From a virus, in the IMG/VR virus record IMGVR_UViG_3300026519_000033, positions 1-35,857 of that record: a DNA stretch of 35,857 bases; one strand, 5' to 3'. The notes beneath the pieces were generated by a model. It was not told the origin of the DNA. It worked only from the letters and a program-made list of their open reading frames with translations, and searched no databases. The translations under genes were made by a program, and so were the position numbers. Shown one piece after another: positions 229-25,600 of the stretch. Every line of letters begins with the position of its first letter. Position 1 is the stretch's first letter.

Positions 229-495
229 ATGAAAAAAGTACAATTAATCATCATTGCTATATTTGGCTTAGTCATAAATGGGTGTGGTCAAAAGGCAGTA
301 ACTATTGTTCACCCAACACTTCCCATTTTAAAGCCAGTGCCAATGGTTACAATTAAGACAGATAATGTAGGGCATATAATTAATACAAAAACTACCATTA
401 GTTATATCATATCATTAAAGAAACGTAATTTGGCATACGATAACATCATCACTAAATACAATGATAAATATACAAAGAAAGATACAAAGGATTAA
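229..495 (+). CDS. Small lipoprotein, possible outer spanin
   Basis: An 88-residue protein with a lysine start, a hydrophobic stretch at residues 5-18 and a lipobox ending in I-N-G-C, so Cys19 is the likely lipidated residue. The mature part is short, begins with a proline-rich segment (residues 28-38) and ends in a Lys/Asp-rich tail. A small proline-rich lipoprotein is the typical form of Rz1-type outer spanins, which fuse inner and outer membranes in Gram-negative lysis. Against this, it lies beside baseplate genes, not in the lysis cassette at 24911-26482, and no partner inner spanin is visible. A virion-associated or exclusion lipoprotein is equally possible. AGGCAG precedes the ATG. Confidence 0.65.
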   Translation: MKKVQLIIIAIFGLVINGCGQKAVTIVHPTLPILKPVPMVTIKTDNVGHIINTKTTISYIISLKKRNLAYDNIITKYNDKYTKKDTKD

Positions 496-2577: not shown

Positions 2578-3162
2578 TTAAAATCTAATCTTGATACCTA
2601 CTACACCATACGTATCGCTAAGTTTTGCATTATTAGAATGGTAGTTGTGTACCAAATCTGTATACAATCCAAGTGTATCGTTTAATTGATACTCCGCTCC
2701 AAGTTTTCCAGTGAACCCAGAATAATTGGTATCTGTTGTACTTCCCACGAATAGTGCTTGGTAATCGCTGATAATTGTATAATGATACCCTACCCCCGCA
2801 TTAAGGCTAATTCCATACAATGATGATGTATTTGCCACAACCATGACATCTACTGTTTTGGAAATGTCCGAATAATAACCAGCTACTTCTAAAGCAATAT
2901 GTTCATTAACTGAATATCCAACTTTCAAACCACCTAGTGGGTCTTTTAAATCACGCACTTCACGCAATCCTACTCCAATTCCAACGTAAAATCTACTTAC
3001 ACAATCAATAGTTCCTGTTTCTCCATTACTTGCATTCATAGTTGTAGCAGTACTACATGGACTATAATCATAGTCTATTGCTTCTGTTTGAGGTTCCATT
3101 ATGTTACCGCCCGCTTGTGCCATTGCTATTGATAAAATAGCTGTCATTAATACTTTTTTCAT
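2578..3162 (-). CDS. Phage-encoded outer-membrane beta-barrel protein
   Basis: A 194-residue protein with a clear signal peptide (MKKVLMTAILSIAMAQA, probable cleavage after AQA), a spacer with two cysteines (about residues 36 and 54), then alternating strands such as FYVGIGVGL, GGLKVGYSV, HIALEVAGYY and GFTGKLGAEY. It ends GVVGIKIRF, the terminal aromatic beta-signal recognised by the BAM machinery. This is an 8-strand OmpA/OmpW-type barrel by appearance. By analogy with lambda Lom and other phage outer-membrane proteins it could alter the host surface or block superinfection; that is inference. SD AAAGGAAACGA precedes the ATG. Its 5' region is copied in the array at 3150-3830. Confidence 0.8.
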   Translation of the reverse strand: MKKVLMTAILSIAMAQAGGNIMEPQTEAIDYDYSPCSTATTMNASNGETGTIDCVSRFYVGIGVGLREVRDLKDPLGGLKVGYSVNEHIALEVAGYYSDISKTVDVMVVANTSSLYGISLNAGVGYHYTIISDYQALFVGSTTDTNYSGFTGKLGAEYQLNDTLGLYTDLVHNYHSNNAKLSDTYGVVGIKIRF

Positions 3163-3882: not shown

Positions 3883-4596
3883 TTACTTCAACAAATAATA
3901 AAGTCTTCCACTACTATTGTTGTATTCCATTGAACTAAACTTAGCCATATCTATTTTTTTATTTGTTCCAATAGTTAATCTCTTTATATTTACATTGTAA
4001 GGAGATGGTACAAGTTTACCTAGTGTACCAATACCTATTGATATATTAAATGCTTCACTAGATGTAGCCTCAACGTTTACCCTTGATGTACTACCACTTC
4101 TTGAATTAAGTATCTCAAAATATACACGACCGTTTTCACTCTCTAGTGTAAGCTCATCAGCCTCTATTGATTTAGAGATGAGGTTAATATTATTTAGTAT
4201 AGACTCATCAAATATAAATTTAGTTAATGATGTATCCTCTTTTTCAAATAGTTCACGTCCTGTTGTCTTAGCAACTATTATATGGCTTTTGTATGGGGTC
4301 ACATAATTGATACATTCTTTTTCATTACCAACCATTGATACTTTAATAACATTACCATTCAATTCTACATCACAATCAGGATACACTTTTAAGATATCAC
4401 AGAACATACTTGTTCCAATTCCTATATCTCCATCAATAGATAGCCCATATTCGTCACACTCATAAATTCCCGTTAGATTACGGTGTAGTGGTTCTGTTAT
4501 ATCTATACTTCCGCTTTTTAATATCATAGTTGCGTTAATCTTAGAGAAATTCTCTAAGACGTTTATAGTTCGGGGTGATAATTTAATTTTACTCAT
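3883..4596 (-). CDS. gp45: Sliding clamp, DNA polymerase processivity factor gp45
   Basis: A 237-residue protein close in length to T4 gp45 (228). The N-terminus LSPRTINVLENFSKINATMI followed by LKSGS matches T4 gp45 (LSKDTTALLKNFATINSGIM, then LKSG) almost position by position. gp45 forms a trimeric ring that tethers polymerase to DNA and, in T4, also activates late transcription with gp33 and gp55. It follows gp32 with a 10-base gap (SD AAAGGATAG) and is therefore probably expressed with it. The clamp-loader large subunit gp44, its neighbour in T4, is not in this window. Confidence 0.9.
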   Translation of the reverse strand: MSKIKLSPRTINVLENFSKINATMILKSGSIDITEPLHRNLTGIYECDEYGLSIDGDIGIGTSMFCDILKVYPDCDVELNGNVIKVSMVGNEKECINYVTPYKSHIIVAKTTGRELFEKEDTSLTKFIFDESILNNINLISKSIEADELTLESENGRVYFEILNSRSGSTSRVNVEATSSEAFNISIGIGTLGKLVPSPYNVNIKRLTIGTNKKIDMAKFSSMEYNNSSGRLYYLLK

Positions 4597-4606
4597 TTAC
4601 TATCCT

Positions 4607-5575
4607 TTATATTTCAATGTCATCAATATCAATGTCATCAATATCAATGTCATCATATACTTTTTCATCTTTAGCTATATCTTTAGCTATATCTTTTTTA
4701 GTTTCATGTACTTGTGTACTTTTCTCTTCACGTTTATCTGTTGGAACGGAATTTACATTATCTAACTCTTCTCTCTCTTCCCTTGTAGGATAATATGTAT
4801 CTCTTTCAAATGCTATGTACTCTTTATACGCTTTAAGTTCGCTAGGTGTGTTGAGGTATGGTGCTAAGAACTCTTTCTTATCTGTTAAATTTTTTATTTT
4901 ATTGTTATCTACTAATTCTTGATATTCTCCAGAAAAGTCAATTGTTTTACCTGATACACTTGTAGAGAAATCTTTAGGATTTTGTGTACGCTTAATATTA
5001 ACAATCGGTGAGTTAAATATATCAAATACATCTAATGGTTCACCATCATCGCTTTCTGCTCTATTTAGTACATCTGAAATTTGCTTACCGTATTTGAATA
5101 AGAATACCTTACCCTCATTATCAGGATTTAGTGTATCTTCTACTACAAGTACATTCGCTACTTTATTCTCATACGAAATTGATGATTTTATAATACCTTT
5201 TAGTACTTCATCGCTTTCATTGTTACGTTTAGCTACATTGTATTTTTTCCACCCATCATCACAACACTCACATTCTTTACCTAATGTTTTTGGGCATACG
5301 TACGGAATTACGAATCTCTTTTCACCGTTTTTGGTTACATTATGTCCATGAAACAGGATGGAGGTAGATGTCACAGTATCAAATCCTTTAGCCTCTTGTT
5401 CGTCCGTTGGTATGCTTGGTAAAAATCTTAATTTAATATCAACGCTTTTTGTTTTTGCGTCAATTGATAGTTTAAGAAAATCGAACTTATTCTTATTATG
5501 AGTTCCGTTATTTGTATGAATACTATCTGTTTTTTTATTTTTCATCTTTGCTTGTAATTTTTCTCTTGCTGTCAT
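4607..5575 (-). CDS. gp32: Single-stranded DNA-binding protein gp32
   Basis: A 322-residue protein (T4 gp32 is 301). It has a basic N-terminal region (residues 1-30) for cooperative binding, an OB-fold core, and a zinc site of the T4 type: His76/His78, Cys94, Cys102 and Cys104/105. The C-terminus is highly acidic, built from repeated Asp-Ile units (about 309-322) encoded by three 15-bp tandem repeats, preceded by a KDIA duplication. The acidic tail in T4 recruits replication and recombination partners. The leader (5576-5682) is unusually A-rich and looks like an autogenous translational operator. SD AAAGGAAA is directly upstream of the ATG. Confidence 0.92.
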   Translation of the reverse strand: MTAREKLQAKMKNKKTDSIHTNNGTHNKNKFDFLKLSIDAKTKSVDIKLRFLPSIPTDEQEAKGFDTVTSTSILFHGHNVTKNGEKRFVIPYVCPKTLGKECECCDDGWKKYNVAKRNNESDEVLKGIIKSSISYENKVANVLVVEDTLNPDNEGKVFLFKYGKQISDVLNRAESDDGEPLDVFDIFNSPIVNIKRTQNPKDFSTSVSGKTIDFSGEYQELVDNNKIKNLTDKKEFLAPYLNTPSELKAYKEYIAFERDTYYPTREEREELDNVNSVPTDKREEKSTQVHETKKDIAKDIAKDEKVYDDIDIDDIDIDDIEI

Positions 5576-5742: not shown

Positions 5743-6123
5743 TTACTTAACCATGATGGTCAATTCTTTAATCTTCACTAACGCTTCATCTAGTGTTGTA
5801 TTAGAAAACGATGAATTGATATCAGCAAGTTTAACTACATGTAACCCATGTTTTTTTATGCTTCTAAGGTTATCAAATTTATTTTGGTTATGATAATTTG
5901 TTAATATCAGTATTTGTTTTAGTGTAATTGTACCGAATGTCATCTCTATTTCTTCAAGGTCATACCCTGCTTCAACTGCGTCATAAAGATACGCTAGTAT
6001 TTTATCATTTTCTGTATCACACATGAGTGCCATTATCCTAGCACGTTTGCTGGCGTTGTGTTTTCCGTTGTGTGCCTTTATCGATATTTGCTCTGCTAGA
6101 GTCACTAAATTTACTGATTTCAT
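5743..6123 (-). CDS. RSH-like (ppGpp hydrolase-fold) protein with broken HD motif
   Basis: A 126-residue protein whose first 75 residues follow the pattern of the HD hydrolase domain of SpoT/RelA and MESH1: an A-H-x-G-K motif (His18), then a helix, then ILAYLYDAVEAGYDLEEIEM and FG..I...LILT. In active enzymes the middle motif is L-L-H-D-V-x-E-D; here the His is Tyr47 and only Asp48 remains, and the second conserved His is also missing. It may bind (p)ppGpp or another nucleotide without hydrolysing it, or be only a distant structural relative. The C-terminal 50 residues are not recognised. It has its own promoter (P3) and SD AAAAGGATAG. Confidence 0.5.
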   Translation of the reverse strand: MKSVNLVTLAEQISIKAHNGKHNASKRARIMALMCDTENDKILAYLYDAVEAGYDLEEIEMTFGTITLKQILILTNYHNQNKFDNLRSIKKHGLHVVKLADINSSFSNTTLDEALVKIKELTIMVK

Positions 6124-6144
6124 ATTCTATCCTTTTGTTTTTTT

Positions 6145-6184
6145 GATTATGTATAGTAACATAGGTTAGCTTAAAGTTAGCTTA
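6145..6184 (-). promoter_or_regulatory. Iteron promoter P3, overlapping the end of the polymerase gene
   Basis: Two TAAGCTAAC repeats and TATACATAATC upstream of the RSH-like gene. The TAA stop codon of gp43 (6182-6184) is the first three bases of the distal iteron, so the stop and the promoter share sequence. Confidence 0.7.
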
Positions 6185-8866
6185 GAATATATCCTCTTCT
6201 ATTTCTTTTACGCTCTGCAACTTTATTCCTATTGCCTTTAACAAATCCCTAGCCTTTTTTAATACCGTTTTTTCTAACATAGTATCTATATCTATTATCT
6301 CTTTCATGATGTGTGAGTTCTTATGTTTAAAAAAACTCTTATCTCTATACGCTAAGCTATCTTTGTTTGTATACTTATTAATCTTTACATATAACACTCT
6401 AATTTTATCACCACTAACAATATGCTCTAGTCCTTGAAATAATCCATCATCTACTAATCTATTGTACTCCCTAGCAGATTTAACTTGTATTGGCGTTGCT
6501 CTATATTGTTTCTCTATGTCATTTACACCCTTTGGTATTGCCATGTCATGTATATCAAACTTAAATCCCTTATAATCACTCGTGAAGGTATCAATAAGCC
6601 TTGATATAGTGATAGTATTACCGTTTGTTAACATTAGTTCTAATAATTCCTGTAGCACGTACTTGGCGCATTTAGGTGTATCTGAACGCTTAACACTAAT
6701 ACCCGAATAATATGGATTAAAATCTTTATAAACCTTACCCTCGTTATCCGTTAAATCAATAGCGTACATCTTGCTAGAGAATACAACCATTTTATTAATA
6801 ATCTTTTCCCTACTAAATTCTATAACATCTTTGTATTGATTAAACTCGTTATAGATACGTGTATTTGTTATAACTATTGTAGGGGATATATACTTTCGTT
6901 CAATTTTATCTATCACCTTGGCGGTAAACAGTCTTTTATCTGTGCCTTGACCATTCTTTTCATATATAGCATTCAAAATATCATTATCTATCTTCAAAAA
7001 GAAACTGTCTGTATCTGAATAAACACGCTCACTATTTGGGTATCCGTTCTCATGTAATACTTTCAAAACATCATTAGCATTTTCTACAATCATGTATCTA
7101 CCCATAGACGTGATGGATAATGCAATTCTGAAATCTTGTAATATACCAAACTTAGAGCCTAATAATCCATACACACTATTCATTAATATCTTAAATACAT
7201 ACTGAAATCTATCAGCTTGTGAGCGTTCATCATCGGTTAATGATTTATCTTTCATTTTGGCTTTGTATTCTAAACGTTTATTATAGAACCCATCAATGAT
7301 GAATGGTATTATCCCCTGTATATCTTTCCTAAAAAATTCTCCGTTTGGAACAAATGTGTAATTACTATCTCTAGCATAATCCATGATAATGGCTTTATCT
7401 TCGTCACTCATCACATCACGATAATAATTTACACAGTCATCATCAAGTGTAATTCTATCTCTAAGTGGTTGTATAAGTTTTATTATGTTACTTGGTATCA
7501 TATCATCATTCACTATTGTTTCAGGTGATATGTTACCATTGATAATAAGATTTGGGTACATTGAGAGTACGTCTTCTGTTACTACTCCCTCATGAATACC
7601 TTTTAGGTTAAATGTGTAACCACCTGCATACTTCATCTGCTCATCTGTGCCATCTACTTTTAATCTATCCGATATATGTTCATTATTGATGTTATAGGTC
7701 TGTATACATTTATTATGTTGTAATAGAGTAGATTTAATCTTATCCTCCCATACTGCTACAGTACCCATAGCATTAATCGCTGTACTATCCATTACATGGG
7801 CAATAGTATAGAGTATCTCAATGTATGCTAACTTCTCATCTAAAGCCCTTAGAGTTGTTATATCCCTAACTGCATACTCAATAAATAACTTATAGCTAAT
7901 TCTATTTATTGATTTGGTGTCATTATTTGTGTATGCCTCATATAGCCCATTTGTTTTTAATTCATCTAACTCAGGTATATATTCACCCTTCTGAATTGTA
8001 ACAATAGAACGAAACCCTTCACTTTCTAAATCTACTTTAGACTCTACCCCTTCATGGTCACACACTGCACCTAGTTTATAACTTTCACGTGAACTAATTG
8101 TAAACTTTTTATATAAATCAAGATAATCTAAATGTTCAATTCCGTTTGGCACATGTGTAGTTGTTCGTTCTCCTTTGTTATTGGTAAAGAATGTGTCCAT
8201 TCCGTACTTAGTAACCTCTTTGTACTTATCATATACACCACACTCTTTAGAACGTACCTCAATGTACTTATAATCAAATACCTTTGTATTCCAACCAAAT
8301 ATAGAGAACGGTTCTGTTTCCTTTAGTAATTTAAAGTATGATAATAACAATTGTCTTTCAGATGAATAATTCTTATATACTACATTCTTATCTGTATTAA
8401 TATATCCATAATTTTCCCCGAATGTATGAACATAAGTAATATCACTGTCTTTCATTCCATATTGTATTGCACTTATAGGTGGTAATTTACTTTCTTCCAC
8501 GGTGTATGGATTTGGAAACCCCTTACCGTCACCTTCTTTAAAGTCAAGTGTTTCAATATCCATGAACGCAAGTTTTGGTAATGTAAAATCTAACTTATGT
8601 TTTCCTACAAGTGGTTGTGTCATTCCTAGAGTTGAGTATATAGCATCATCTGTATCACTAACAAATTTTTTTAATTCATGTAGGTTAGTATGTGGATAAT
8701 AAGTTAGTGGTTTATTAGTAATATAATCTTTGTATTTGGTAGGTCTATCACCGTCAATGAAACTCATTAAAGGCTTAGTATACTGGGTAATTGATTTGTT
8801 ACCGTTATCATCTTGTGATACAGTGTATATTCTATTATTGTGTTTAATGGCGGTTATTGGTACCAT
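6182..8866 (-). CDS. gp43: Family B DNA polymerase gp43
   Basis: An 894-residue protein (T4 gp43: 898). The 3'-5' exonuclease motifs are FMDIETLDF (Asp103, Glu105), FGWNTKVFDY (about 190-199) and YAVRDITTL (331-339). Polymerase motifs are A, DVLSMYP (432-438); B, KILMNSVYGLLG (559-570); and C, YSDTDS (616-621). All catalytic residues are present. The C-terminus ends in an acidic-hydrophobic VKEIEEDIF, where T4 gp43 carries its clamp-binding tail. It is transcribed alone from P4 (SD AAAGGGATAG); no intein or homing-endonuclease interruption is visible, although T4-like polymerase genes are often invaded. Confidence 0.96.
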   Translation of the reverse strand: MVPITAIKHNNRIYTVSQDDNGNKSITQYTKPLMSFIDGDRPTKYKDYITNKPLTYYPHTNLHELKKFVSDTDDAIYSTLGMTQPLVGKHKLDFTLPKLAFMDIETLDFKEGDGKGFPNPYTVEESKLPPISAIQYGMKDSDITYVHTFGENYGYINTDKNVVYKNYSSERQLLLSYFKLLKETEPFSIFGWNTKVFDYKYIEVRSKECGVYDKYKEVTKYGMDTFFTNNKGERTTTHVPNGIEHLDYLDLYKKFTISSRESYKLGAVCDHEGVESKVDLESEGFRSIVTIQKGEYIPELDELKTNGLYEAYTNNDTKSINRISYKLFIEYAVRDITTLRALDEKLAYIEILYTIAHVMDSTAINAMGTVAVWEDKIKSTLLQHNKCIQTYNINNEHISDRLKVDGTDEQMKYAGGYTFNLKGIHEGVVTEDVLSMYPNLIINGNISPETIVNDDMIPSNIIKLIQPLRDRITLDDDCVNYYRDVMSDEDKAIIMDYARDSNYTFVPNGEFFRKDIQGIIPFIIDGFYNKRLEYKAKMKDKSLTDDERSQADRFQYVFKILMNSVYGLLGSKFGILQDFRIALSITSMGRYMIVENANDVLKVLHENGYPNSERVYSDTDSFFLKIDNDILNAIYEKNGQGTDKRLFTAKVIDKIERKYISPTIVITNTRIYNEFNQYKDVIEFSREKIINKMVVFSSKMYAIDLTDNEGKVYKDFNPYYSGISVKRSDTPKCAKYVLQELLELMLTNGNTITISRLIDTFTSDYKGFKFDIHDMAIPKGVNDIEKQYRATPIQVKSAREYNRLVDDGLFQGLEHIVSGDKIRVLYVKINKYTNKDSLAYRDKSFFKHKNSHIMKEIIDIDTMLEKTVLKKARDLLKAIGIKLQSVKEIEEDIF

Positions 8867-8887
8867 TTCTATCCCTTTGTTTTATTT

Positions 8888-8926
8888 GTTGTGTATAGTA
8901 ACCTAAGATAACTTAGGTTTAGCTTA
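8888..8926 (-). promoter_or_regulatory. Divergent iteron promoter P4, upstream of gp43
   Basis: The -10-like TGTTACTATACA version is kept as GTTACTATACAC, but the iterons are altered: the distal one is TAAGCTAAA and the proximal one lies in a perfect palindrome CCTAAG-TTAT-CTTAGG. This would expose the polymerase gene to a different level or type of control from its neighbours. Confidence 0.6.
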
Positions 8927-8952
8927 TATTTGAAATAAGGCTTGGAATGTAT

Positions 8953-9030
8953 TTAAGCCACTTCATTGTATTACACTAGCTAGGAGTTGTTATTTTGATT
9001 AGAATGGCTTTAAGGGGTGGTTCTGTTAAG
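8953..9030. repeat. Interspersed operon-boundary element, copy B
   Basis: TTAAGCCACTTCATTGTATT, then CTAGCTAGGAGTTGTTATTT and AATGGCTTTAAGGGGTGG. Lies between the end of gp41 and promoter P4. As in copy A, TTAAGCCA and TGGCTTTAA can pair. The GATAGGA hairpin of other copies is replaced by a different inverted repeat (9034-9068). Confidence 0.85.
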
Positions 9031-9033
9031 TTA

Positions 9034-9068
9034 TGACGTTGATATACTAGAATGGCACATCAACGTCA
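9034..9068 (-). terminator. Hairpin overlapping the gp41 stop codon
   Basis: TGACGTTGAT and ATCAACGTCA form a perfect 10-bp stem with a loop of about 15 bases; the gp41 stop (9047-9049) is in the loop. No T-run follows on the minus strand, so it may stabilise or process the mRNA 3' end and not terminate by itself. Confidence 0.5.
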
Positions 9069-10417
9069 AGATAACTTTCCACATCATCCAAATACCCTCC
9101 TTCCTCATCTTCCGAATTGTAAACACTACGTTCATGTATTGTTTCATTATCTTCCATACTTGTGATACGCTGGTGTGATATATCCACACTAACATTTTCT
9201 ACATTGGTGTTATTCTTATTTGCTCGTCTTGATTTAATTAGCTTTAGGTTGTATATGTCTTTGTCTATCTCGTCTACCCCCATGAACATTAAACTATCTA
9301 GCCCATGTGCGTATCCACTAGAGTCTGCTACATGGCTCATGTTTATATCCTCTACTTGTAAAGAATGAACTATCGGCTTTGCTTGTAAGGCGGTTATTAT
9401 TGGAATATCATGCATGAATGCAATATCTTTTAGTTCTTCTGTTGCTTTTTTACCATTCATGTATAAGTCACCTCTAATTCCAGCATCATTTGCTTTTAGT
9501 AATCCTAAATAATCAAGTATCAAAATGTCAGGAACAAAGCCTTTTAATTCCCATTCTTCCAACGTATAGTCAACGTCCATACTGCAACTTGAAGTAGGTA
9601 ATCTTTTTACCATAACACTACCCGTTAATTTAGTAGCAATACTCCTAAATGCTCTTAAGGACTCTTCGTTGTCTTTACTTAAGTCATGCAGTGTTACATT
9701 TAGTAGGTTACAGTCTATTCTACTCATGACAGCCTCTGATGAGTCCTCTAAATGTATAATACCTACATTATAGCCATCTAACATGTACTTAGTTGATAGC
9801 GATGTTAGCATCATTGTTTTACCCGTGTTTGAACTAGATAAGAACGTATTAACAGACCCCTTATCAGAAAAAGATGAGTCAATGATGGAGATACCGCTTT
9901 TCATATCAATAGTTTGGCTTTGTTTGTAGTACTCAAATCTGCTTTCGGCATCATCTATGTACGATTTTGAGTTATCTACTTTAAGTAATTCCAAATCTGT
10001 GATATATTTCATCTTAACTAATAACGTTTCGTACGTTTCTTTACTTTTGTATTTATCATCATTTTCACCGTCAAGCATGTCTATACTCTTATGTATCAAC
10101 GATGTAAATCTAGTTTCTTTTATATACGACTCGATAGACTTTAAACCGACCTTGAATTTAATATCAATTGTCTTTAATGTTTCTATATACCCTAATAAAT
10201 ATGGTTTTTGTGTAGCCTTTATGTCTAGGTTTGAACTTATGCTTAATGATAAATCATCTTTATTCATTGATATATTATTAGCGTATGCCGATTTAAGTTC
10301 TGCTAGAATTATCTTATCTTCCTTTGTACCCATGTCCGTTAACTCTAATACAGGTAATGCTTTTGAAGATACCTCTTTTGATGATAATAGTATTTCGAAT
10401 ACTTCCTTTGTAGTCAT
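9047..10417 (-). CDS. gp41: Replicative DNA helicase gp41 (DnaB family)
   Basis: A 456-residue protein (T4 gp41: 475). The N-terminal helical domain (1-165) is followed by a RecA-fold motor with Walker A LSSSNTGKT (193-201), Walker B DILILDYLGLL (297-307) and a later ITALQAKP segment typical of DnaB/gp41 motif H3. The C-terminus is acidic. The first Gly of the classic Walker A is replaced by Ser, a mild deviation. It follows the lipoprotein gene at 10433 by 15 bases with SD AGAGGAA. No primase gp61 gene is recognisable in the window. It probably works with the gp59-like loader at 24149. Confidence 0.88.
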   Translation of the reverse strand: MTTKEVFEILLSSKEVSSKALPVLELTDMGTKEDKIILAELKSAYANNISMNKDDLSLSISSNLDIKATQKPYLLGYIETLKTIDIKFKVGLKSIESYIKETRFTSLIHKSIDMLDGENDDKYKSKETYETLLVKMKYITDLELLKVDNSKSYIDDAESRFEYYKQSQTIDMKSGISIIDSSFSDKGSVNTFLSSSNTGKTMMLTSLSTKYMLDGYNVGIIHLEDSSEAVMSRIDCNLLNVTLHDLSKDNEESLRAFRSIATKLTGSVMVKRLPTSSCSMDVDYTLEEWELKGFVPDILILDYLGLLKANDAGIRGDLYMNGKKATEELKDIAFMHDIPIITALQAKPIVHSLQVEDINMSHVADSSGYAHGLDSLMFMGVDEIDKDIYNLKLIKSRRANKNNTNVENVSVDISHQRITSMEDNETIHERSVYNSEDEEGGYLDDVESYLDVDVPF

Positions 10418-10432
10418 GTTAAATTCCTCTTT

Positions 10433-10993
10433 TTATATCGAAAGGTTCAAATAATTTGGCTCATATAGATACTCTGTACCTACAGGAAATGCACCTATTG
10501 AACCGCTTTGTAGTATTAATTGTTTCTTTTCTCCATCAACTATAACATTTATTTGTAATAACAAATGTCCAGATTTGTAATTTTTATCTTCAACATATCC
10601 CGCGATTAATTGTAGATTTTCCTGTTTGAACATAGTTGAAAATTTAGGGTCTGTTAATAAATATGACGCCACGCTAAGGGCATAGTCTTCACAGTCACCA
10701 ACGAAATAATCTGTATCAATGTTATCAACAAAAACCCAGTAATCATCTTGACCGTAAGTATCAATATCATAAGCGTATTCGTAGTTATCGTTAATTGTAT
10801 ATATTGCATTTAGGAACTCGTAATACTCTTCATAAGTTAACACAGCCTCTTTATATTCGTTTACTTTTGACTCTAACACAGTGCCGTAAGTGACATCTCT
10901 GTATTTTGTGTCAAACGTGTCCTCATATAAATCACACCCGTTAATTGTTAATACCGCTATCGTTGCTAAAATCGTTTTTAAAATCGTGTTCAT
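10433..10993 (-). CDS. Lipoprotein with BTLCP/LapG-like cysteine-protease fold
   Basis: A 186-residue protein with a signal sequence and lipobox ending T-I-N-G-C (Cys20). The mature part contains VGDCEDYALSVASYLL (Cys101) and, 42 residues on, SGHLLLQINV (His143), matching the Cys and His motifs of bacterial transglutaminase-like cysteine proteinases such as LapG, a periplasmic protease that releases LapA biofilm adhesins. The third catalytic residue, an Asp in a V-L-D-N motif, is replaced by Gln162 (LILQSG), so activity is uncertain. A lipid-anchored periplasmic protease made from an early-type promoter (P5) might act on host surface adhesins or exclude other phages; this is inference. Confidence 0.65.
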   Translation of the reverse strand: MNTILKTILATIAVLTINGCDLYEDTFDTKYRDVTYGTVLESKVNEYKEAVLTYEEYYEFLNAIYTINDNYEYAYDIDTYGQDDYWVFVDNIDTDYFVGDCEDYALSVASYLLTDPKFSTMFKQENLQLIAGYVEDKNYKSGHLLLQINVIVDGEKKQLILQSGSIGAFPVGTEYLYEPNYLNLSI

Positions 10994-11014
10994 TTTCTAT
11001 CCTTTTGGTTTCTT

Positions 11015-11054
11015 GATTATGTATAGTAACATAGGTTAGCTTAAAGTTAGCTTA
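11015..11054 (-). promoter_or_regulatory. Iteron promoter P5, lipoprotein-gp41 operon
   Basis: Two TAAGCTAAC repeats 11 bp apart and TGTTACTATACATAATC. Followed by the standard leader CCAAAAGGATAGAAA and the ATG at 10993. Confidence 0.7.
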
Positions 11055-11079
11055 GGTTACGATTTTAACAATTGATGTG

Positions 11080-11535
11080 TTAGTCTTTCCAAGTTATTAT
11101 TCTACAATCTGCTTCTAATATATTCAATGGCTTGTCTGTATCTGGCGACCCTGCGTATCTGGCTTTGTACTTCGCTCCCTCAAAATCGTTGTATTCACTG
11201 ATTTCATGTAAGTGAACAAAATCATTTCCGTTACAATCATTCCACTTAATCGCACCAATAGGTGTAGCGTGTACAAGGAACTCATCTTTAGTGAACACAT
11301 CGTGCCCTAATTCATTCCAACTTATGATACAGAATTGTACCACATTTAGCTTTGTGTGTTTAGGTTGTTTTTCAATAAATCTTTCTATACTACGTTTGTA
11401 TTCTTCCTTTGTGTATCTTGGATTATCAATTGTATAACAATGCTCATTGAAATATCTCATTCTGTATGGGGTACAATGTTCATCAGATAGTGGTAGCTTT
11501 TCTAATTCTAGTCTTTTTATTTCTTCTGGTTTCAT
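11080..11535 (-). CDS. Unknown protein, 151 residues
   Basis: Not recognised. Begins with a charged helix (MKPEEIKRLELEKLPLSD), then a region rich in aromatic residues and histidines, with VQFCIISWNELGHDVF and a C-terminal part with HLHEISEYNDFEGAKYKARY. Five cysteines are present but not in CxxC pairs. No signal peptide or membrane segment is seen, so it is probably cytoplasmic. It is alone between promoters P6 and P5, suggesting early or middle expression. Its first five codons, MKPEE, recur just after promoter P9 (17606), where a short remnant ORF lies. SD AAAAGGATAAG. Confidence 0.6.
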   Translation of the reverse strand: MKPEEIKRLELEKLPLSDEHCTPYRMRYFNEHCYTIDNPRYTKEEYKRSIERFIEKQPKHTKLNVVQFCIISWNELGHDVFTKDEFLVHATPIGAIKWNDCNGNDFVHLHEISEYNDFEGAKYKARYAGSPDTDKPLNILEADCRIITWKD

Positions 11536-11560
11536 TTTTCTTATCCTTTTGTTTTATTGT

Positions 11561-11592
11561 TTTTGTATAGTAACATAGGTTAGCTTAGAGTT
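11561..11592 (-). promoter_or_regulatory. Iteron promoter P6 with one degenerate iteron
   Basis: Proximal TAAGCTAAC and GTTACTATACA are intact, but the distal iteron is reduced to GGAAACTC, next to the UvsW stop at 11595. Useful natural test of whether the distal repeat matters. Confidence 0.6.
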
Positions 11593-11594
11593 TC

Positions 11595-13130
11595 CTATAT
11601 CAAAGAACTACCAAGCTTAATATTCTTTTCGAATGTAGTCTCAAATTCATTATGTTCAAAAATTTGTAGCCTCTCTAAATAACTTTTATAGAGATAATTG
11701 TCTACCTTACCGCCATTACGCTTATCATGCCTTAAATCATCTACAAAATCCAGCAACACGCCTGTTCGTTTCTTACCGTCAGGAAATCTCCTTAAAATTC
11801 TACCTATAGCTTGTGGTATTCCATTTTCAGATTTACTACTTTGTGCTAACACTAAATACTGTAATGTTGTTAGATTTAGCCCCTTGCTGGATATACTAAA
11901 TGTAGATACTAATATCTTACCATTCAACTCTTTGTCATAGTTAGCTAATATCTCTTTCCTATCCTTAACTTTTGTTTTTCCTCCTATGAACAGAACCTTA
12001 TCCGTATATTTAGACAATACCTTATATATCGCTTCTCCGTATGCTACTGTATTGAATAGTACTAATATATTTCCATCATTCTTTTTACTTAACTGTAGAA
12101 TAACCTTACAAACAGTTTTTAATCTTTCTTTGTTGCTGGATACGAAATCTACTTCAGCCCTATACTTTTCAGTACCTTTTAACCCCCTCTGCATAGCCTT
12201 TAAATCGCGTTTGGCATCATCATCATATCTTAACATATATGGGGCTATAACAACGTTAGAACTTAAGTTTAGGTCTATCATTTCTCTAGCCGTAATGATA
12301 TTCTCATACACGCCAAATAAAGAGGTTAGTTCATAGTATGGAATAACATCTGTTGGTACAGTTCCAGTTACTCCCATTCTACGGTTTATATTACCAAGCT
12401 TAGTGATTATGCTTTTATATGATTTGGATTTACCTAAATGTACCTCATCAACATATAAAGATGTAACCGACTGATAAATAGAGTGACTATCATCTAGTTT
12501 TGCTATTGACTGCCAAGTTGATATAATTATCGGTACATCTGCATCTTTATTCTGTCCACCATATATCTTATGAATAAGGTTTGATATATCCTTATAATTC
12601 TTACTGTACTCAATGAAATCATTATACATCTGTAGTACTAGGTTTATGTCAGGTACTACTAATAAAATCTTTTCATTTGGATTATTCTCGATTAAGTGCA
12701 TAAAGGTTAAGAATAACATTAGAGATTTACCACTACCCGTTGCACTTTTAATTATACCTAGTTCATTGTTTAGTAGTTTATTAACAGCTCTGATTTGGAA
12801 ATCATACGGTGTGAATGGAAGATTATATTTTGTAAAACTATCTTTCTTTAATTGTATGAAATTATCATCTATTATCATAGATGGGATTTCAAGGTCTATT
12901 CCTAAATCGAATGCTTCCTCTTTTAGCTTTGGTAATAATCCATTCCCGATGATAGCTTCGTCCGATAAGTACTTTACCATACTTGACATATACCCTGCCT
13001 TTACGGCTGGAGTATACTTTAGTGTAACGTCCTCAATAGATAATCTCTTTTGAAGTTTTTTGAACAATAGCGTTTCGCTTTCATCGTATACCAATTTAGA
13101 GTATACGCTGTCTAGTCTTTCAATTTTCAT
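11595..13130 (-). CDS. uvsW: UvsW-like recombination and replication helicase
   Basis: A superfamily 2 helicase of 511 residues from the chosen ATG at 13130 (T4 UvsW: 587). Motifs: I, SATGSGKS (129-136); II, DEVH (228-231); III, TGT (255-257); VI, QAIGRILRR near the C-terminus. The N-terminal 95 residues resemble the small DNA-binding domain of UvsW. In T4 it unwinds R-loops and branched DNA and drives the switch from origin- to recombination-dependent replication. An upstream start at 13154 would add 8 residues with no better ribosome site; I prefer MKIERL. It overlaps the preceding gene by 11 bases, so is probably coupled to it. Confidence 0.85.
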   Translation of the reverse strand: MKIERLDSVYSKLVYDESETLLFKKLQKRLSIEDVTLKYTPAVKAGYMSSMVKYLSDEAIIGNGLLPKLKEEAFDLGIDLEIPSMIIDDNFIQLKKDSFTKYNLPFTPYDFQIRAVNKLLNNELGIIKSATGSGKSLMLFLTFMHLIENNPNEKILLVVPDINLVLQMYNDFIEYSKNYKDISNLIHKIYGGQNKDADVPIIISTWQSIAKLDDSHSIYQSVTSLYVDEVHLGKSKSYKSIITKLGNINRRMGVTGTVPTDVIPYYELTSLFGVYENIITAREMIDLNLSSNVVIAPYMLRYDDDAKRDLKAMQRGLKGTEKYRAEVDFVSSNKERLKTVCKVILQLSKKNDGNILVLFNTVAYGEAIYKVLSKYTDKVLFIGGKTKVKDRKEILANYDKELNGKILVSTFSISSKGLNLTTLQYLVLAQSSKSENGIPQAIGRILRRFPDGKKRTGVLLDFVDDLRHDKRNGGKVDNYLYKSYLERLQIFEHNEFETTFEKNIKLGSSLI

Positions 13131-13536
13131 GATGACCACATCTTGTGTATACATCTATTGATAGCAGTATTAGTCCGTATAACAGCCCTATAGTTACATT
13201 CTTTATTTCACGCTTGACCCTTGCATCTCTGATGTCATACACGTAGTTATATGATTTGTCATCTGTATTAATTCTGTTATACTTATTTCCGATGAACCCT
13301 CTATGTTTAAAGTTATACACGGTATAATAGCCCTTTTTGTCTTTGCATTTATCTACATTAGTAATAGTCGCTACCAATATTGCGTCATGTGTTGTTTCAT
13401 TTAGGTACTTTTTGAATTTCTTTTTTCCCCTTATTGTTTTTATAAATTTCCCATAAGCGTTGAATATTGCGTACGCTTTCTTTCCTTTTATCTTTGACAA
13501 ATATAGCTCGTTCATTCCCTCGTGCAAATCATTCAT
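13120..13536 (-). CDS. Unknown basic protein with one C-terminal membrane segment
   Basis: A 138-residue protein from the ATG at 13536, which has a good SD (AAAGGATAAG). A longer frame up to 13578 would start inside promoter P7 and is rejected. The N-terminal half is strongly basic (KGKK, RGKKKFKKY). A hydrophobic helix, NVTIGLLYGLILLSIDVY, lies close to the C-terminus, consistent with a tail-anchored inner-membrane protein whose basic domain faces the cytoplasm. No family recognised. It begins the operon that continues into UvsW. Confidence 0.6.
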   Translation of the reverse strand: MNDLHEGMNELYLSKIKGKKAYAIFNAYGKFIKTIRGKKKFKKYLNETTHDAILVATITNVDKCKDKKGYYTVYNFKHRGFIGNKYNRINTDDKSYNYVYDIRDARVKREIKNVTIGLLYGLILLSIDVYTRCGHHEN

Positions 13537-13560
13537 TTTCTTATCCTTTCTTTGTTTCTT

Positions 13561-13600
13561 GATTTTGTATAGTAACATAGGTTAGCTTAAAGTTAGCTTA
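13561..13600 (-). promoter_or_regulatory. Iteron promoter P7, membrane protein-uvsW operon
   Basis: Two TAAGCTAAC repeats and GTTACTATACAAAATC, directly adjoining the stop of the gene at 13601. Confidence 0.7.
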
Positions 13601-14005
13601 TCAACCTTCTCTTTGTTTTGATATATCATTCAAATAGTCAATGTGGTTTTGGCTCATCACTTGATAGTAATCTCTAGCCACATCTTTCCCAACTGTATAA
13701 AAATCCATTATAGGATATATACATTTGTTTTCAATATCATCAATATACTTTTCTCGCTTAATGTAGGTTACTCTTCCGTTTATGCTCATATCCTTGGCGA
13801 TAATATACATATCATAAATACCAATCTTCCAATTTACATTAAGGAACTGTGCTATAGGGGTGGTTTGTATATTACTACTAAGATACTGCAAAAGCAACAC
13901 ATTATTTAGCCCACTCCCGATTACTTCGGCTTCGCTTAGAATAGGCTTTGTACTTGTTATATTAGAAAGTACATCAAATACACTCAATGCCTTATTAGTA
14001 CCCAT
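13601..14005 (-). CDS. Possible clamp-loader small subunit, gp62-like
   Basis: A 134-residue protein. The layout NKALSVF near the start, a central helix IAQFLN, and a C-terminal FYTVGKDVARDYYQVMSQNH resembles the compact gp62 clamp-loader subunits of marine T4-like phages, which run from an N-x-x-L-S-x-F motif to a similar final helix pair. The match is by overall pattern, not by a catalytic motif, and T4 gp62 is longer (187). Supporting context: it lies among gp43, gp45 and gp41. Against: no gp44 partner is beside it. Overlaps the preceding gene by 11 bases. It could be an unrelated phage protein. Confidence 0.4.
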   Translation of the reverse strand: MGTNKALSVFDVLSNITSTKPILSEAEVIGSGLNNVLLLQYLSSNIQTTPIAQFLNVNWKIGIYDMYIIAKDMSINGRVTYIKREKYIDDIENKCIYPIMDFYTVGKDVARDYYQVMSQNHIDYLNDISKQREG

Positions 14006-24910: not shown

Positions 24911-25600
24911 TTAAGCATATTTTCTAATTTTATTGAGTACGGATATTGTGGTATAGAGTCTTTCTTTTTTCTCCTTTTTAGGTAACCCTGAATTAATCTT
25001 ACGGATAATACATTTTGTATTTTTACATTCATACATTTTTGTCATATACCAAAAGCCCATAGCACTCAATACACCGCCAATATAAGAGTTCAATAATGAC
25101 GGATAAACATCACCATCATCATTAAAACACACAATGCCTGTTTTATCCTCTATAATCTTATAAACTCTAATTGTGTTGGAGCGTCCAGTTAATTGGAATA
25201 TTCCACTACCTCTATACTTCCACCCATCAATCGGTTTAAGATTACCAAGCACCCTTGCTTTATTTCCTTTGCCATACCAATTCATAGCAATATATTTTTG
25301 CTTTTCTATTCCTCTCAATTTCATAGCATTAGCCATTAGTTTTGGATTATTTCTAAATGTACGCGAAAACCTCTTTAATACTGGCTCTCTATAATTTAAA
25401 TTCTCCCTTAACCTAACAGTGCCATTCTTTTTGATGAACATTTCATGTTTGGTTTGTGCAAGAAATCTAGCCAAGTGTTTATCTGTTGTAATTCCGAACT
25501 CTTCCCCGTATAGATTTATGGTATCTTTAAGGGTCTGAATGAAACGTTTCTCAACTCTTTTTCCGTACACTTTACGTAATAGTTTTTTGGATACTTTCAT
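24911..25600 (-). CDS. Endolysin, glycoside hydrolase family 19 type
   Basis: A 229-residue GH19-like lysin. Features are FLAQTKHE (probable catalytic Glu53), RENLNY (Glu66), YGKGNKARVLGN, then GWKYRGSGIFQLTGRSN, the signature region of phage chitinase-like lysozymes that cut peptidoglycan glycan chains. No signal peptide or separate cell-wall-binding domain; a basic C-terminal tail. It therefore needs a holin, and small membrane proteins are directly upstream (25603-26482). Two bases separate it from the preceding stop. T4 uses an unrelated lysozyme (gpe). Confidence 0.88.
   Translation of the reverse strand: MKVSKKLLRKVYGKRVEKRFIQTLKDTINLYGEEFGITTDKHLARFLAQTKHEMFIKKNGTVRLRENLNYREPVLKRFSRTFRNNPKLMANAMKLRGIEKQKYIAMNWYGKGNKARVLGNLKPIDGWKYRGSGIFQLTGRSNTIRVYKIIEDKTGIVCFNDDGDVYPSLLNSYIGGVLSAMGFWYMTKMYECKNTKCIIRKINSGLPKKEKKERLYTTISVLNKIRKYA

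Follow-up and report, generated by a model that had tools for sequence, protein, structure and literature searches.

The window, which is the whole stretch of DNA analysed here, is a virus record of 35,857 bases with 32% GC. On its minus strand lies a gene whose predicted product, judged by sequence, is divergent but related to the bacterial transglutaminase-like cysteine proteinases (BTLCPs). The initial annotation had placed the reading frame at 10433-10993 and had quoted the motifs GDCEDYA (Cys101) and SGHLLL (His143); the position is exact and both motifs read as quoted. The features of the locus are the following.

9047..10417, minus strand: DnaB-like replicative helicase gene (gp41-like), second gene of a putative bicistron, by profile (phrog_19, 1.4e-41)
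10433..10993, minus strand: BTLCP-like lipoprotein gene, 186 aa, ATG start, from the ORF list, Pfam and our own profiles
10508..10510, minus strand: Gln162, codon CAA, predicted third residue replacing Asp, from the model hairpin and the bacterial profile alignment
10535..10537, minus strand: Asp153, codon GAT, rival third residue in a predicted two-residue DG turn
10565..10567, minus strand: His143, codon CAT, catalytic histidine position, invariant in both alignments
10685..10699, minus strand: GDCED, with the nucleophile Cys101 flanked by Asp100 and Glu102, from the alignments of relatives
10691-10693, minus strand: Cys101 codon TGT
10760..10768, minus strand: Asp76-Ile-Asp78, which matches the calcium-loop DID of LapG in the alignment
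10934..10993, minus strand: predicted signal sequence and lipobox INGC, from sequence motif and hydropathy only
11001..11006, minus strand: probable ribosome-binding site AAAAGG, from the upstream sequence
11022..11054, minus strand: promoter-like element, with a pair of TAAGCTAAC boxes (11 bp apart) ahead of TATGTTACTATA

The gene had been described as standing before gp41, and indeed the DnaB-like helicase gene starts 15 nt downstream of its stop. The window also encodes a UvsW-like DNA helicase by profile (phrog_16); gp41 and UvsW are our labels for these phrog_19 and phrog_16 matches. From their sequences we read 6182-8866, 4607-5575 and 3883-4596 as the putative gp43, gp32 and gp45, respectively, and the terminase is 34-36% identical to those of T4-like phages (12 matches, among the matches listed). 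A separate endolysin-like gene lies at 24911-25600 (phrog_181). A recent foreign origin of the target gene was rejected, as its composition (GC 0.326, GC3 0.294) resembles that of the helicase gene (0.336, 0.304) and of the window (GC 0.321). PADLOC matched the target to no defence-system protein at E up to 1.

Two further genes of the window deserve mention. The 151-aa gene at 11080-11535 (minus strand) has its own perfect promoter-like element and gave no confident family match in Pfam, PHROGs, NCBIfam or PADLOC. An outer-membrane beta-barrel-like protein is encoded at 2578-3162 (minus strand; Pfam OMP_b-brl, 28.9 bits against a cut-off of 28.7), with a single phage match at chance level (E 9); we read it as a further putative envelope gene of the same phage.

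The initial annotation had the gene transcribed from an iteron promoter. The conserved element, with its two TAAGCTAAC boxes 11 bp apart, is there, in a perfect copy 28 nt upstream of the target, and its role as a promoter is what we infer. With up to 4 mismatches allowed, the last 20 bases of TAAGCTAACTTTAAGCTAACCTATGTTACTATA occur in 13 copies, which span 3839-35245 of the window and all lie on the minus strand; at up to 3 mismatches 11 copies were found against 0.03 expected. An exact second TAAGCTAAC lies 11 bp upstream in 9 of the 13 copies, and in 10 of the 13 an ORF of at least 50 codons follows at 25-31 nt; two others are 110 and 114 nt before an ORF (114 for the gp32-like gene) and one has no ORF within 130 nt. 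The element in front of the target is common to replication genes, the copy of the DNA-polymerase-like gene having 4 mismatches. Since the gp41-like helicase gene has no element of its own and the gap is 15 nt, target and helicase are probably read as one transcript. The element itself resembles an early or middle promoter of a phage, its activator boxes paired at a spacing of one helical turn, and could be a MotA-like activator system. The late T4 motif TATAAATA was not enriched in the window (5 found against 14 expected), and a sigma-70 scan of 8800-13700 did no better than shuffles (27 against 25.5).

Pfam gave a single family for the protein, Peptidase_C93/BTLCP (PF06035; E 2e-5, 24.9 bits, 24.4 in a second run). 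Because this score falls below the gathering cut-off of 27 bits, we call the target a divergent relative and not a certified member. PHROGs returned phrog_12671, ‘peptidase’ (E 1.8e-4), plus one family of unknown function. Our own BTLCP profiles, built from 51, 17 and 34 relatives, scored the target at 66.6, 59.4 and 58.0 bits, against best scores of 8.4, 9.7 and 7.2 bits for 2,000 shuffles of the mature protein; note that the profiles flatter the target because likeness to the query played a part in the choice of their rows. Profile homology to the BTLCP family is thus beyond chance (58-67 bits against at most 9.7, and the Pfam E value), and the relationship proposed in the initial annotation held. 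LapG itself was rejected: the NCBIfam LapG equivalog gave 19.3 bits against a cut-off of 320, and the earlier LapG label was not borne out. By phmmer, LapG (4u65_E) came first among PDB chains, with an E value (0.094) that is not significant alone. With E allowed up to 10, tblastn matched 34 phage records, the best of them at 6e-3, including 22 Caulobacter and 10 Vibrio phages; none of the 34 covers 80% of the query, and several are annotated as transglutaminase-like cysteine peptidases.

We obtained two structure models. The first was built on an alignment holding Asp153 in the Asp column (pTM 0.75); in the second the other 51 rows were cut after His+3, so that the model got no cue to the position of the Asp strand (pTM 0.73). 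Both show a transglutaminase/papain-like fold resembling LapG, which is the best solved match and agrees with what the initial annotation had expected. Foldseek placed LapG 4u65_E first (E 3e-5), with Legionella LapG entries next, and VIA-align gave the two LapGs Z scores of 10.2 and 9.4 with the first model (best rmsd 3.5, 121 aligned) and of 9.6 and 9.0 with the second (best rmsd 3.9, 124 aligned). The best non-LapG rows were PeiP/PeiW (Z 7.5, first model) and vasohibin (7.3, second model). A viral structure library yielded five matches at E up to 0.001, one being the SBP1 BTLCP and the others unnamed.

The relatives were collected by alignment-based scans, from which the best 79 loci of at least 296 and the best 79 of at least 235 relatives were kept, and by a genome scan (best 80 of at least 90), with the surveyed loci ranked by likeness to the window protein. 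The viral survey of 100 loci reduced to 76 distinct GDCED proteins, among the matches listed; for the third catalytic position one incomplete protein (L068) was left out, giving 75. The columns of Cys101 and His143 are invariant across both alignments of relatives. Their spacing in the target, 42, had been named as a point to check and is usual for phage relatives, being the same in 26 of 75 and 40-44 in 67 of 75 (among the matches listed). In the second model Cys82 (mature numbering) opens a helix (82-95) and His124 lies within a strand (120-133), the arrangement of a BTLCP.

Residues beside the active site that bind calcium in characterised BTLCPs are likely kept in the target as well, at Asp76, Asp100 and Glu102. 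Asp76 aligns with D111 of P. fluorescens LapG, on a mapping that presumes the LapG Cys numbering. Asp100 and Glu102 match the DvhG calcium ligands D316 and E318. In the available parts of the sources, D111 belongs to the calcium loop of LapG (PMC4359373), and both the D316A/E318A double mutant and the C317A mutant of DvhG are inactive (PMC13090378).

At the third position, Asp was read by a pattern rule in 72 of the 75 viral relatives, with Asn in CcrSwift (by alignment), Cys in a Thiohalocapsa phage and Gly in Bajun, and in 77 of the 79 bacterial or archaeal ones, with Glu in L165; L149 was counted as Asp-bearing on its VIDV. By the same rule not one of the 75 viral and 79 bacterial relatives, 154 distinct proteins in all, has Gln, all counts being among the matches listed. 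The Caulobacter and Brevundimonas phages carrying the Asn (L002) and the Gly (L009) are related to each other.

The initial annotation had put Gln162 at the Asp position and had left room for another acidic residue in the triad. A candidate for such a residue is Asp153; beyond Gln162 the next ones are Glu174 and Glu178, 12 and 16 residues on. MAFFT set Asp153 in the Asp column in 15 of 15 runs (five settings, three row sets), and among the profile alignments reaching the site those of all relatives and of phages did the same, whereas the bacterial one picked Gln162. Moreover, the distance from His143 to Asp153, 10, is near the His-Asp spacing of 11 seen in 65 of the 72 Asp-bearing viral relatives (among the matches listed). 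The protein would then be an active enzyme with an ordinary Cys-His-Asp triad, and the Gln162 reading an alignment error. Against this, the strand reaches 152 or 153 in both models. The first has strands at 139-148 and 150-153, a loop at 154-157 and a short strand at 158-160; the Asp153 reading could use the one-residue break at 149, although an ordinary hairpin turn would need a longer one than is modelled. In the second model (DSSP, full numbering) a strand at 139-152 leads into a turn at Asp153-Gly154, ten residues past His143, and the partner strand, 155-162, ends at Gln162. Given this turn, Gln162 stands opposite His+2, which would be the Asp register of the short phage forms if their turn is assumed to have two residues. 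The pLDDT of this model was 90 for 140-149, 93 for 150-159 and 68 for 160-169, and its tail from 168 on is mostly below 50. On this mixed evidence the earlier placement of Gln162 stands as the probable one, Asp153 is an unlikely third residue, and the enzyme with a complete Cys-His-Asp triad is quite improbable. A frameshift concealing an Asp was rejected, as stops break the other two frames across the last 160 bases; the Gln codon, CAA, is two base changes away from an Asp codon.

Would a Cys-His-Gln site work? In the available text of a review, the canonical third residues of papain-like peptidases are Asn, Gln, Asp and Glu (PMC10318531), and the Caulobacter BTLCP HvyA is dead as D241A and works as D241N (PMC4241560, in part). 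The dead D241A shows that the position matters, while D241N and the naming of Gln in the review indicate that Gln can be functional; hence loss of the acid alone shows neither a dead nor a live enzyme. Since the Cys, the His and the likely calcium ligands are kept, we think, from sequence and models, that a Cys-His-Gln enzyme that works is more likely than a dead one.

The N-terminus had been described as carrying a lipobox, and in support of this we found a hydrophobic core (Kyte-Doolittle mean 2.28 over the best 12 residues) followed by the motif INGC, with Cys20 as the residue that would be lipidated and Asp21 at +2; the Asn at -2 is unusual. Lipidation and membrane placement of the protein are predicted from these signals. 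In E. coli, Asp at +2 retains lipoproteins in the inner membrane. Asp21 might do the same here, which is a guess, as the rule is that of E. coli and may not be that of this host. Among the matches listed, a lipobox occurs in 6 of the 76 distinct phage relatives, namely Kuja, four of the proteins of contig L016, and Bajun, and is absent in 70, one being judged by eye. A script also gave 6, from which L004 was dropped (an artefact of an extended start) and Bajun (L009) was added by eye. Since 70 of 76 have none, this localisation is not a family trait.

Other lipoprotein-like genes were seen along the way. In the window, the ORF at 229-495 (plus strand, 88 aa) shares the INGC lipobox of the target and is rich in proline at its start, and its product is possibly an outer spanin. 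The 240-kb viral contig L016 (IMGVR_UViG_3300028045_000001) holds six BTLCP genes within about 6 kb (5971-12093), all six above the Pfam cut-off and each with a lipobox-like start by eye; it looks like an expanded lipoprotein BTLCP cluster, which may be under diversifying selection. Vibrio phage Kuja (MN718199, 3953-4324) has an unannotated lipoprotein-like BTLCP frame adjoining a tail-fibre gene and still open where the record ends, no stop codon having been reached.

The target remained a single sequence: sequence and alignment scans found no close relative. Scans of viral contigs with the target and gp41-like sequences themselves returned none, in a set that may omit the records nearest the window; the UvsW-like protein gave two distant loci (30-32%), and a fixed-spacing DNA pattern search for closer relatives gave 0. 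In the tree the window protein falls, weakly supported (59/76), on the side of the phages; its branch is long (2.02) and isolated and meets other long branches, and we claim no origin for the gene from the tree. As for neighbours, 14 of the 121 ORFs beside relatives were profile-tested (10 by PHROGs, 4 others by Pfam); two of the ten were further BTLCPs, and none of the 14 was a replicative helicase. Portal, terminase, spanin, annotated lysis genes and tail fibre all occur beside phage BTLCPs, so the neighbourhoods point no single way.

Building on the homology, the fold, the kept Cys, His and calcium-ligand residues, the shared promoter-like sequence and the lipobox motif, all computed here, we propose with about even confidence that the gene encodes an envelope lipoprotein of the BTLCP family, with a Cys-His-Gln site and a kept calcium site, which is coproduced with the replisome and whose task is to modify a protein of the host envelope. 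Its activity, the use of Gln, the substrate, the timing and the benefit are our suggestions. As the first gene of the pair with the gp41-like helicase, it would be expressed alongside the replication proteins; anchored in the host envelope so as to face the periplasm, its LapG-like cysteine peptidase/amidase domain would modify a host envelope protein during copying of the phage genome, before lysis. The altered cell surface or DNA-entry route might then exclude rival phages, which fits a protein of the envelope that is expressed alongside the replisome; superinfection exclusion is our leading guess, and as a second choice the infected cell could be freed from an adhesin or capsule. The whole chain is a long shot: a lytic T4-like phage would coexpress a BTLCP with its replisome, and this calcium-dependent Cys-His-Gln enzyme, anchored in the envelope, would exclude competitors by cleaving or deamidating a protein of the host envelope.

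The Asp-to-Gln change could also mark a pseudoenzyme that kept the fold, lost catalysis and binds a former substrate or a host regulator, for example as a decoy blocking a host LapG-like or DNA-entry protein. The prevalence of Asp (72 of the 75 viral relatives in which the third position could be read, among the matches listed), the non-functional HvyA D241A (PMC4241560, in part) and the long isolated branch would suit such a protein, but a decoy has no need of the Cys, His and calcium-ligand residues, all of which are kept, and Asn works at this place in HvyA and exists in a phage BTLCP (CcrSwift, by alignment). We consider it doubtful. An envelope amidase aiding lysis or acting on peptidoglycan is suggested by a Thiohalocapsa phage whose BTLCP adjoins genes annotated as hemolysin, Rz-like spanin and peptidoglycan hydrolase, by another (L066) three ORFs upstream of an Rz-like spanin, and by the pseudomurein endoisopeptidases PeiP/PeiW among the structural neighbours (Z 7.5). 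The target, however, is paired with a helicase gene behind an element common to replication genes, and the endolysin-like gene is a separate one, which makes a lysis role very unlikely. A role in processing or chaperoning tail fibres or other virion proteins would agree with SBP1, where the BTLCP directly follows a tail-fibre gene, and with Kuja, but neighbours differ between phages (portal in one; terminase, portal and spanin among others) and those of the target are the helicase gene and the 151-aa gene without a confident family; we give this role hardly any weight.

If that whole chain from the replisome-linked enzyme to the exclusion of competitors holds, it would be a proteolytic route to superinfection exclusion, and if the enzyme is active with Gln it would use a third residue absent from the relatives surveyed (among the matches listed). 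The predicted export signal and the core replication neighbour hint at the time of its production and at its approximate place of action. In the available part of a study of river viruses, BTLCP was the auxiliary gene identified most often (PMC11283719), and with such genes common in environmental phages the target offers a handle on phage BTLCP function. Among the open-literature matches listed, we found no functional study of a phage BTLCP.

Finally, we compared the protein with known systems. The characterised BTLCPs LapG, HvyA and DvhG act on surface structures (PMC4359373, PMC4241560 and PMC13090378, each in part). LapG of Pseudomonas and Legionella, a calcium-dependent periplasmic protease that cleaves LapA and is held by LapD, is the best structural match and shares GDCED with the flanking calcium ligands and the predicted envelope location; LapG, however, is soluble with a C-H-D triad, whereas the target bears a lipobox and scores far below the LapG cut-off. 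In the accessible text on HvyA, this periplasm-exported BTLCP domain, resembling the target in its predicted export, blocks capsulation, and its loss makes Caulobacter insensitive to phage phiCr30, a precedent for a BTLCP deciding whether a phage infects its host (PMC4241560). Because HvyA decides capsule and phage sensitivity there, a phage mimic of it could be tested in the L002 and L009 phages. The working C-H-N variant shows that HvyA tolerates an amide at the third place; it differs from the target in being bacterial, without a lipidation signal and with Asp in the wild type, and that text describes no Gln variant. DvhG of Desulfovibrio vulgaris is a membrane-anchored, active BTLCP with the DCE calcium/catalytic motif but, in the available part of PMC13090378, is anchored by a transmembrane helix with a long linker and not as a lipoprotein, has C-H-D, lies in an adhesin operon and cuts an adhesin.

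Llp of phage T5 is a superinfection-exclusion lipoprotein. So is Ltp of phage TP-J34 (PMC3952083, in part), and a lipobox signal sequence, a mark of such proteins, was found in the target by motif and hydropathy. Compared by description, Ltp and Llp resemble it as phage-encoded lipoproteins outside the cytoplasmic membrane, but in the material available they are not known as proteases, and Ltp is expressed from a prophage in a Gram-positive host. Phage BTLCPs are already known, in print and as record annotations: those of phrog_12671, of phiCbK-like Caulobacter phages, of Vibrio phages and of river-water viruses share GDCED...H in phage genes with the target, but most of them measure about 130-150 aa, lack a lipobox and have Asp (among the matches listed). 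Lipoprotein BTLCPs do occur in other phages too (the six of 76 above, among the matches listed), and what is unusual in the target is its lipoprotein form, its Gln and its helicase operon.
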